From Crocinitomicaceae bacterium (lineage in GTDB: Bacteria; Bacteroidota; Bacteroidia; Flavobacteriales_D; CAJJDF01): a DNA stretch of 46,644 bases. Of the stretch, positions 20,671-24,109 are shown in pieces. The stretch's first letter is position 1; each line of letters starts with the position of its first letter. The notes under the pieces are model-generated. The model searched no databases and had not been told where the DNA came from. It saw only the letters and a list, made by a program, of their open reading frames with translations. The stretch lies in contig JAHEIE010000024.1 of assembly GCA_024639505.1 (NCBI GenBank), positions 1 to 46,644 on the forward strand, read 5' to 3'. Made by a program: the position numbers and the translations under genes.

Positions 20671-22008
20671 CTACCTCACTTCTTTCTCAACGAACGAAAT
20701 ATTAAAAGATTCTAGCTCTTTTAAAATAGGTTCGTAGTATTTTTTGGAAATAGGAAGATCTACACCAGTTGATTTTATAGTTCCATCTAAAATTAATTTA
20801 CAACAAATCCCTACGGGTAATCCCACAGTATTACTCATTGCGGTATAAGTTTGATCTTCTCCTATCGAAACCATGCTCGAATGAACTTCCTTGGTTTCTC
20901 CTTGCTTATTCCTATAAATTAATTTGTGCCACATCACTATCATATCCTTGTCTTCGGGCTCTAGTGTCCACTTTTCTTCTAATATTTTTTGTAGAATTTG
21001 GGCTGGCGTAGCATTTTTCAAACCTACTTTAGTTTCCTCAAATATTCCTAACCAAACAAGCTTTTCCCATAGAGTATCATCTTGTTCAATTTTCAGGTAA
21101 TGCCTCAATTTTAACTCAACTGAATCGGATGGGCTATAAGCCAAAAATGAATTGATAAAATCACGATAGGTCATTTCTTCTGTGTTTTCCATCGTGTAAC
21201 TATCATCCGTTGCTCCAATTTGTACAAATACATCCCAAGCTCTAGAAAAACCAACTCTTCGCAGTGTTCCTCTGTAAATTGTATTGATATTTTCTAATCC
21301 ATATACAGATTGGTATTTTAAAGAATCTCTATTTGCTATCCCTTCAAATTTTCCAAAACCATCAATATCTATAAACTCTGTTCTACGAAATAGCTTGTTG
21401 TATGGAATGTATTTGAATTGATTCTCTTCTATAAACTTAGCAGAACCTCCTTGACCAGCAATTACTACATTTCTCGGATTCCAAGTAAACTTATAGTTCC
21501 AAGGATTATTATCGCTATCAGGCGCAACCAAACCACCCGTAAACGATTCAAAGTTTAGAATTTCCCCTCCGTCTTCCTTAATCTCATTAATCAATTTCAT
21601 GGCACTCATATGATCAATACCCGGATCTACACCTAGCTCATTCATTACAAGCACTCCTGCCTCCTTGGCTGCCGAATCCAAAGCTTTTACTTCGGGAGAA
21701 ATATAAGAAGGAGTTACCACATTTTTTTTCTGATTAATAGCTTCTTCTATAACATGAATATGGAAACTTGCTGGAAGCATGGAAACAATTAAATCTGCTT
21801 GTGACACCTCTTGTTTTACTTGATCTTTATTAAAAACATCAAATTGAACTGCCACAGCTAATTCATGATTTGCAATTTTACTTTCGGCCATTTTTACGTC
21901 CATATCGCATACCCTTATCAACCAATTATTCTGTTTTGCCTGATGTAACATATACCTTATAAGACTAGAGGACGAGCGTCCAGCTCCCAAAATCGCGATT
22001 TTTTTCAT
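20671..22008 (-). CDS. Saccharopine dehydrogenase-family oxidoreductase
   Basis: N-terminal Rossmann IAILGAGRSSSSLIRYM, MNELGVDPGIDHMSAMKLI, NTVGLPVGICCKLILDG. Confidence 0.9.
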   Translation of the reverse strand: MKKIAILGAGRSSSSLIRYMLHQAKQNNWLIRVCDMDVKMAESKIANHELAVAVQFDVFNKDQVKQEVSQADLIVSMLPASFHIHVIEEAINQKKNVVTPSYISPEVKALDSAAKEAGVLVMNELGVDPGIDHMSAMKLINEIKEDGGEILNFESFTGGLVAPDSDNNPWNYKFTWNPRNVVIAGQGGSAKFIEENQFKYIPYNKLFRRTEFIDIDGFGKFEGIANRDSLKYQSVYGLENINTIYRGTLRRVGFSRAWDVFVQIGATDDSYTMENTEEMTYRDFINSFLAYSPSDSVELKLRHYLKIEQDDTLWEKLVWLGIFEETKVGLKNATPAQILQKILEEKWTLEPEDKDMIVMWHKLIYRNKQGETKEVHSSMVSIGEDQTYTAMSNTVGLPVGICCKLILDGTIKSTGVDLPISKKYYEPILKELESFNISFVEKEVR

Positions 22009-22143
22009 AGATTATTATCTGTTTTCTCGAAATTAAGGTTTTCACAAATACTTTGCAACTTGTTAAATTTTATTGTTATTAACAACTAACAAAATAGGTG
22101 CAGATTGAAGATAAAACTCTTCATTTCTTATAACTTTACAAAC

Positions 22144-23943
22144 ATGAAAAAATCAATAAACATAGGTTACGAGCAACGAATAGAAGTCCTTTCTGTTCTT
22201 GAAAAAAAACAAGAATCTATTTTGAAAAATATTTTACTCGGTAGAGTATCAAGTTTCATAATCCTAATCTTGCTGGTTGCCTTTTCTATCTATACAAATT
22301 CTGGCGCGGTGCTTTGGTTCAGCTTATTTCCATTTTTGGGTTTTGCTTTGCTGCTTATAAAAAACAGAAAAGAGAATGCAAAGCTACTTTTGATTCAAAA
22401 AAAAATAAGTACAAATAAAGAAGAATTACAATACCTCAAATCCGATTTTTCTCCTTTCGAAAACGGAACAAATTTCATTGATTCCAGTCATAATTTCTCT
22501 CATGATTTGGATGTGTTTGGAAAAGGTTCTCTTTTTCAATCTATCAACAGAACTAGTTCATCCGAATCTGAAGAAACACTTGCCAAACTCCTACAACACC
22601 CTTTTGTTTCTGAAAATGAAATTCTTGAAAGACAAAAAGGAATAGCTGAGTTGACATCCAAAGTGGAATGGCGAGAGGAATTCAGAGCTACAGGAAAGTT
22701 GTTTGCTACACAAAAAAACAAAACTGAATTAGTTTCTGGATGGAACAAAGAGGAAATTCCTGGTTTTGAAAACTTGAAATTATGGAAATTTATCCTCTGG
22801 GGAATTCCTGTTTTTATGTGCTTAATATTCATCTTGGCATATTTTGCTTATCTACCCTGGGGTGTAGCTATTTTGGCGGCAAGTATTCCTTTGGGGCTGT
22901 TAGGAAATAAACTAAAACTAATTAACAAACAACACTCAAAAATCTCTCAATTTCTTCCTGTTCTTCAACAAAACTCGCAGCTCACTAAATTGATTGAAGA
23001 CGAACCTTTTGAATCTACAATTCTACTGGAATTTCAAAAAAAATTAAAGAATAAAAAAAACATTGCTTCGGAAGAAATAAGCGAACTTGCCAAACTCACC
23101 CAGCAGTTAGACAATAGAAGCAACCCAGTATTTGCTATTGTCATGAACGCTCTTTTCATTTGGGACTTGCAATATTTGTTCAGGTTAAAACAGTGGCTCA
23201 CAAAAAACGAAAACAAGTTAAAATACTGGTTAGAAGCTGTGTACAACATAGAAACCTTCCTCAGTCTGGCAACATATTCGTATAACAATCCAACTTTCTC
23301 TCAAGCCATTCCATCTTCTGAATCAGTAATAAAAACCATAAAATTGGCTCACCCACTTTTGCCAAACAAAACACGAATCGCAAATGATTTCGAAACTAAA
23401 AATCTTCAAGAATTTGAAATAATTACGGGAGCCAACATGGCTGGTAAAAGCACATTTTTAAGAGCTATTGGGATTAATTTAATTTTAGCGAATTGCGGAG
23501 CTCCAGTTTGTGCAGAGTTCTTTAGTTTTAATCCTATCACAATTTTCTCTAGCATGAGAACTTCTGATTCATTGAAAAACAACGAATCATATTTTTACTC
23601 TGAACTAAAAAGACTTCAAACGATTGTTGAGAAATTAAAAACTGGTGAGAAACTTTTTGTAATTCTAGACGAAATTTTAAAAGGAACAAATTCAAAAGAC
23701 AAGGCCGAAGGGTCTAAAAAATTCGTGAAACAAATTCTAAAATATCAAGCTGCGGGAATTATAGCTACACATGATTTATCGCTCTGTTCTCTTAGAGATG
23801 AATTTCCTGAGCAAATAAAAAACAAGTATTTTGATGTAGAAATTGAAAACGACCAATTGGTATTCGATTACAAACTAAAAAACGGAATCTGTTCCAACAT
23901 GAATGCCGAATTTCTGATGAAGAAAATGGGCATTACGAATTGA
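22144..23943 (+). CDS. Membrane-associated MutS-family ATPase lacking the mismatch-recognition domain
   Basis: MutS Walker A GANMAGKSTFLRAIGINLILANCGAPV, Walker B LFVILDEILKGTNSKD and ATHDL. Two hydrophobic hairpins (RVSSFIILILLVAFSIYTNSG...LFPFLGFALLLI; ILWGIPVFMCLIFILAYFAYLPWGVAILAASIPLGLLG). Start at the internal ATG 22144. Confidence 0.88.
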   Translation: MKKSINIGYEQRIEVLSVLEKKQESILKNILLGRVSSFIILILLVAFSIYTNSGAVLWFSLFPFLGFALLLIKNRKENAKLLLIQKKISTNKEELQYLKSDFSPFENGTNFIDSSHNFSHDLDVFGKGSLFQSINRTSSSESEETLAKLLQHPFVSENEILERQKGIAELTSKVEWREEFRATGKLFATQKNKTELVSGWNKEEIPGFENLKLWKFILWGIPVFMCLIFILAYFAYLPWGVAILAASIPLGLLGNKLKLINKQHSKISQFLPVLQQNSQLTKLIEDEPFESTILLEFQKKLKNKKNIASEEISELAKLTQQLDNRSNPVFAIVMNALFIWDLQYLFRLKQWLTKNENKLKYWLEAVYNIETFLSLATYSYNNPTFSQAIPSSESVIKTIKLAHPLLPNKTRIANDFETKNLQEFEIITGANMAGKSTFLRAIGINLILANCGAPVCAEFFSFNPITIFSSMRTSDSLKNNESYFYSELKRLQTIVEKLKTGEKLFVILDEILKGTNSKDKAEGSKKFVKQILKYQAAGIIATHDLSLCSLRDEFPEQIKNKYFDVEIENDQLVFDYKLKNGICSNMNAEFLMKKMGITN

Positions 23944-23944
23944 T

Positions 23945-24109
23945 CTACTTCAAGTATTTCAATACAATAAGAATGACACAAAAAATAAACAAATAGATTG
24001 AAAGCCTATTAATTCCCTGCATCGTTTTATGTGAAGCATTTAAGTTTTCGGATTCCTCTTTCTGAAACAATGTTTTAGGATTGAGGTAATAGATTATTTT
24101 TTTTAACAT
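23945..24109 (-). CDS. Small single-TM membrane protein, 54 aa, resembling Bacteroidota DUF6728-type mini-proteins
   Basis: Absent from the ORF track. Translation: MLKKIIYYLNPKTLFQKEESENLNASHKTMQGINRLSIYLFIFCVILIVLKYLK*, with one C-terminal TM helix. Confidence 0.7.
   Translation of the reverse strand: MLKKIIYYLNPKTLFQKEESENLNASHKTMQGINRLSIYLFIFCVILIVLKYLK

Follow-up and report, generated by a model that had tools for sequence, protein, structure and literature searches.

A predicted membrane-anchored, clamp-less MutS-family ATPase found across Bacteroidota

A 46,644-nucleotide stretch of a Crocinitomicaceae genome (the window) carries a gene whose product joins a MutS-type ATPase to strongly hydrophobic segments, and mutL lies 1.8 kb from it. 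RefSeq names relatives of this product 'MutS family DNA mismatch repair protein', which raises the question of whether a MutS protein of this build serves mismatch repair and, if not, what its ATPase might act on. According to a 2024 review (PMC12292046), a large number of the prokaryotic MutS subfamilies that lack domains I and II are still largely uncharacterised. Our literature searches on membrane MutS proteins returned nothing relevant, and an earlier notice of the class is possible. The group to which the 599-residue protein belongs, here called class A (~600 aa, two hairpins), is apparently a widespread and unstudied bacterial family.

Domain content of the 599-residue protein

The open reading frame runs from an ATG at 22144 to a stop codon at 23941–23943 and encodes 599 residues; an alternative TTG start upstream, at 22105, would give 612 (Table 1). 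Pfam MutS_V matches residues 426–585 (E = 3.8e-28, 99 bits against a cut-off of 30), and the GANMAGKST, DEILKGTNSKD and ATHD motifs are invariant or near-invariant across 45 aligned homologues, in agreement with the intact MutS domain V ATPase that the first-pass annotation had placed in the C-terminal ~200 residues. The protein terminates with the ATPase, and from the alignment we place its end close to the start of the C-terminal HTH region in MutS1.

Table 1. Features of the class A gene in the window.
Feature	Position in window	Strand	Evidence
Membrane-anchored clamp-less MutS-family ATPase gene (predicted)	22144..23943	+	ORF, Pfam MutS_V, 57 orthologues, AlphaFold2 model
Predicted TM hairpin 1, residues ~30–75, within a long predicted helical hairpin (helices 5–51, 61–98)	22231..22368	+	Hydropathy, conservation, model, charge
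N-terminal half of MutS domain III core, residues 116–190, motif HxxxxDLDxFGxxSLFxxxNRT	22489..22713	+	Pfam MutS_III, profile alignment to MutS1
Predicted TM hairpin 2, residues ~211–255, between domain III halves	22774..22908	+	Hydropathy, model, alignment
Second half of domain III / levers, helical, residues 256–395	22909..23328	+	AlphaFold2 secondary structure, alignments
MutS domain V ATPase, residues 396–599	23329..23940	+	Pfam, conserved positions, model, profile alignment
Walker A GANMAGKST, residues 429–437	23428..23454	+	Sequence, conserved positions
Walker B and D-loop DEILKGTNSKD, residues 509–519	23668..23700	+	Sequence, conserved positions
Switch-His motif ATHD, residues 541–544	23764..23775	+	Sequence, conserved positions

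Neither mismatch domain I, with its Phe-x-Glu motif (PF01624), nor connector domain II (PF05188) gave a match to the query at E ≤ 10, and the Pfam clamp domain IV (PF05190) gave none in the query either. MutS_I, II and IV are absent from the Pfam matches listed for the 45 family members, as are KOW and SMR domains from those listed for the query and these members. The reading that the mismatch-recognition and connector domains are missing is thus borne out by the Pfam matches listed. Two further points in the first-pass annotation need correction, namely the omission of the domain III core that lies between the hairpins and the description of the protein as a membrane-tethered MutS clamp. Residues 126–183 match MutS_III (E = 5.4e-7; 30.6 bits, slightly under the curated cut-off of 34.1), a domain matched in 34 of the 45 family members, and the N-terminal half is therefore not wholly non-MutS. 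The clamp domain is the part that is missing, and canonical DNA encircling is therefore unlikely. Judged by its sequence, the protein is a member of the MutS superfamily that combines a domain V ATPase with a domain III core.

Two further MutS_V proteins are encoded in the same genome, a MutS1 of 871 residues and a MutS2 of 714 residues. In the former, all five MutS domains are matched by Pfam and the GDFYETF motif is present. As the genome has a full MutS1 and a MutS2 besides, the 599-residue protein is not the MutS that serves mismatch repair in this cell. Among the Pfam matches listed for the MutS2 of this genome (L155:557-2701) are MutS_V and the MutS2/Smr-associated SH3 domain only, with no Smr.

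Conserved hydrophobic hairpins and predicted fold

The two strongly hydrophobic hairpins picked out at first reading proved real and conserved. The 19-residue Kyte-Doolittle mean peaks at 2.39 and 2.22 in hairpin 1 and at 2.46 in hairpin 2, and both hairpins are kept in all 57 divergent orthologues (median identity 31%), which were drawn from order-level and phylum-level relatives. The same scan of the MutS2 (714 aa) and of a 572-residue part of the MutS1 from this genome found no window at or above 1.6. Family-wide, Lys and Arg make up 17–23% of the hairpin 1 flanks and of the segment that follows hairpin 2, 13% of the segment preceding hairpin 2 and 1–5% of the two short turns. This charge pattern obeys the positive-inside rule, as expected of an inner-membrane protein with its ATPase inside. 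With uncharged cores between Lys- and Arg-rich flanks, the segments are membrane-like, and the burial in a soluble core against which the initial reading had been set was not found. Hydropathy and charge pattern over 57–58 sequences, together with the predicted fold, predict four membrane helices.

The hairpins are the least conserved part of the protein, with a mean identity to the query of 0.20 and 0.18, compared to 0.37 in the domain III core and 0.52 in the ATPase. Since their hydrophobicity is conserved and their sequence is not, they fit a role as anchors. Arg34, at the start of hairpin 1, is the only TM residue that is invariant in the 45 aligned members, and Phe67, also in hairpin 1, is near-invariant.

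An AlphaFold2 model based on the 45-member alignment (mean pLDDT 91.2, pTM 0.89) has the MutS fold, and in a structure comparison the nearest solved entries are MutS proteins, with 7oto matching at E = 1.1e-18, a TM-score of 0.55 and 18% identity. Helices 5–51 and 61–98 are modelled as one very long hairpin that is hydrophobic in the middle and helices 211–233 and 239–255 as a second, and the membrane helices pass almost uninterrupted into cytosolic helices. A profile alignment to MutS1 (E = 3.8e-34) extends over residues 126–586, from the domain III core through the ATPase, and aligns SLFQSINRTSSSESEETLAKLLQHPF... to the beginning of MutS1 domain III. In the MutS1 of the same genome, domain III spans residues 272–560 with the clamp nested at 429–520 (Pfam). 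Hairpin 2 would thus sit roughly at the lever-tip/clamp site of MutS1, in a region where the alignment is unreliable residue by residue. Class A and MutS1 therefore share the domain V ATPase and domain III core in the same order, with matching folds, while MutS1 has domains I, II and IV and a C-terminal HTH region that class A lacks, and class A has four predicted TM helices.

Distribution, relatives and gene neighbourhood

Class A is a pan-Bacteroidota family. It was found in 31 of 60 order-level genomes, the genome of the window included, and in 58 of 198 genomes of a phylum sample (~29%), in which matches of at least 180 bits were taken as class A. Named loci were obtained by an alignment-based scan of genome contigs, a scan with the single protein having yielded none, and the best 80 of them include Bacteroides, Parabacteroides, Tenacibaculum and Chitinophaga. 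Among the order-level relatives, carriers have larger genomes (mean 3.5 versus 2.6 Mb, p = 1.7e-6 without correction for relatedness), and for this reason class A looks accessory. At one locus (L019, G019:C3:1940287-1941922) the gene is split into two overlapping frames and a stop, likely a pseudogene or a sequencing error.

Two related classes were recognised. Class B proteins are ~540 residues long and usually have an N-terminal TM segment and one hairpin; they occur in Bacillota (including Staphylococcus, Ruminococcus and Subdoligranulum records and a contig labelled as Listeria phage) and in some Bacteroidota, and are called 'MutS family DNA mismatch repair protein' in RefSeq. The class A and class B profiles align over 456 columns (E = 1.7e-69), and the class B hairpin is located at the site matching class A hairpin 2. 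The two classes thus share the domain III core, the hairpin site and a DEIxKGTN ATPase; they differ in that class B usually has a single N-terminal TM segment where class A has a hairpin. The called ORFs of three class B members showed no N-terminal TM segment. In a S. aureus record (L146) class B adjoins tsaD, and in other Staphylococcus records it is on plasmids; on one of these, S. epidermidis pNuk650 (L148), an Fst toxin and a gene of the AIPR family are close by, a context that may hint at a role of class B in plasmid maintenance or defence. A defence-system library searched against the class A query gave weak ATPase matches only. Class C proteins (~440 aa; L156–L164, L171) are made up of a domain III core plus the ATPase, with no hairpins and no clamp, are soluble by hydropathy and are apparently uncharacterised. 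The class C model shares the core of class A, and a continuous helix (residues 109–137) takes the place of class A hairpin 2. Two class C copies lie side by side on contig 34 of one genome (G156).

In a domain V tree, each of classes A, B and C is monophyletic (99/99, 100/98 and 100/99, respectively). The three group in one clade (99/93), apart from MutS1 (100/99) and MutS2 (100/100). Class A hence falls in neither of these clades, and the clustering within a characterised soluble MutS clade that would have told against the initial reading was not seen. As to branching within the clade, one tree joins A and B (94/91) and a larger tree does not. MutS2, like class A, has the domain V ATPase and lacks domains I and II, but characterised MutS2 has the lever/clamp and KOW/SMR and no TM segment (PMC10897456).

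MutS8, reported from Amoebophilaceae and giant viruses, is also like class A in being without domain I and in having a domain III-like core motif and an ATPase. Cardinium proteins of this subfamily have predicted signal peptides and have been read as secreted effectors acting on host DNA (PMC5698495). Our candidate MutS8 set was collected by way of a Cyclobacteriaceae locus, from small genomes of the order to which that locus led; genome size, order and copy number suggest that these are the MutS8 proteins of Amoebophilaceae. There are two or three copies per genome besides MutS1, each of ~700 residues (L253–L281), with a domain III-like motif, a DEPFSGTNP ATPase motif and, in many, a signal-like N-terminus; an export signal on an ATPase is odd. 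These putative MutS8 proteins form their own clade (100/100), weakly sister to A+B+C (89/74), and class A therefore does not group with them. A viral origin of the family was considered and set aside, as the family alignment found only three IMG/VR contigs and class C none. The three 'viral' contigs (L143, L144 and L145) carry membrane MutS relatives and are either viral or misassigned bacterial DNA.

The genes around class A are not conserved. The first-pass annotation had implied a link to MutL, and this did not survive the comparison: no mutL turned up in the best 80 named loci, congener included, with flanks of up to 6 kb. None was seen in 58 further loci either, whose 1.5-kb flanks are too short at the spacing found in the window. 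When the neighbours in the 80 loci were clustered, no neighbour was common to more than 14, which indicates that class A has no dedicated operon partner. A RuvC-like neighbour, recognised by eye only, was noted in 11 of the 80.

The 54-residue membrane protein that is encoded convergently at 23945–24109, previously suggested as a partner, belongs to DUF6728 (PF20498). Its adjacency is confined to the genus, and DUF6728 is present in 15 of 30 relatives with a class A gene and in 10 of 29 without one, with one further match below the cut-off. Given this genus-only adjacency and a presence independent of the class A gene, DUF6728 is not a general partner. Divergent from the MutS-like gene, at 20671–22008, lies a saccharopine dehydrogenase-like gene, a neighbour common to four relatives of the same family (69–80% identity) and one distant relative (L006–L009 and L063). 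The hint of a lysine connection that it gives, together with the lysine 5,6-aminomutase protein KamC, was judged incidental, because the neighbour is limited to the same family bar that one distant exception.

A possible role at the membrane

MutS domain V ATPases work as dimers with composite ATP sites. Domain III levers transmit ATP-driven motion to the clamp, and in MutS1 they open and close the DNA clamp. Domain content, conservation of the hairpins, fold and clade membership of class A are well supported by the computations. With the ATPase motifs intact, the core kept and the hairpins near the clamp site, it is most economical to read class A as a remodelling ATPase anchored in the membrane. 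We hence propose, with a probability of roughly one half, that class A is no mismatch-repair clamp and that its MutS-type ATPase, held at the membrane by the hairpins, remodels a target associated with the membrane. In such a mechanism the two hairpins, that is four membrane helices, would root the protein in the inner membrane with the ATPase presumably on the cytoplasmic side, and the protein would probably dimerise through its domain V ATPases, forming composite ATP sites as in other MutS proteins. Driven by the binding and hydrolysis of ATP, the lever helices of domain III would move, and these may run into the membrane, and couple to it, in place of a DNA clamp. The likely job would be the ATP-driven loading, opening or dislodging of an inner-membrane protein or nucleoprotein complex.

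There is precedent for targets other than DNA. MutS2 applies its ATPase to ribosomes, which it splits (PMC10897456), indicating that a MutS core can act on a non-DNA target, and MutS-like proteins have been proposed to aid the assembly of adenosylcobalamin enzymes (PMC9164220); from these two cases, MutS cores need not act on DNA. KamC, the reactivase ATPase of lysine 5,6-aminomutase (NF052383), is likewise a MutS-type ATPase named for a non-DNA job. By analogy with ribosome splitting by MutS2 and with KamC, a remodelling role appears most likely for class A. The query matches the KamC model weakly (78 bits against a cut-off of 300), and no cobalamin-enzyme neighbourhood is among the shared neighbours of the 80 loci.

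Alternatively, class A could be a membrane-tethered DNA handler, in which the core holds or remodels incoming, replicating or recombining DNA without a canonical clamp. The best-studied MutS proteins do act on DNA, the RefSeq name of the relatives points the same way and the core could bind DNA in another way, but domains I and IV, which contact DNA in MutS1, are missing, and the 80 loci show no consistent association with recombination, competence or repair genes beyond the RuvC-like gene in 11 of them; we regard this reading as unlikely. A further alternative is an ABC-transporter-like protein in which the dimeric MutS ATPase shifts the membrane helices and so transports or flips a substrate. 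In its favour, the ATPase of MutS domain V is dimeric and of the ABC type, a dimer of chains with four TM helices each would have eight, and the near-unbroken passage of membrane helices into cytosolic ones in the model would suit such a coupling. Yet the TM segments are the part in which conservation is lowest, with Arg34 and Phe67 as the exceptions, and clustering of the 80 loci revealed no substrate-related neighbour genes, making transport quite improbable.

Little credence can be given to an accessory mismatch-repair factor that partners MutL. The mutL gene in the window is what speaks for it; against it stand the 80 loci, the missing connector and mismatch domains, the complete GDFYETF-bearing MutS1 of the genome and the approximately half of order-level relatives that have no class A gene. 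It is equally hard to credit a soluble protein in which the hydrophobic segments are core helices, given the uncharged hydrophobic hairpins, Lys/Arg-rich flanks and short uncharged turns over 57 orthologues and the existence of soluble class C relatives that have no hairpins. More tentatively, the membrane-anchored remodelling ATPase may be viewed as a dimeric ABC-type machine in which lever arms fused to hairpins mechanically power a process in the membrane, either transport or the remodelling of lipids or membrane proteins, in much of Bacteroidota and also in the related Bacillota class, a broader proposal that we hold to be possible and doubtful.

The anatomy of class A gives no support to the 'mismatch repair' label. 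If our preferred reading, a membrane-anchored remodelling ATPase, is true, the annotation would be misleading in many genomes, among them those of Bacteroides and Parabacteroides, which carry class A, and Bacillota with the related class. It would also reveal a further kind of use for the MutS ATPase core, at the membrane.
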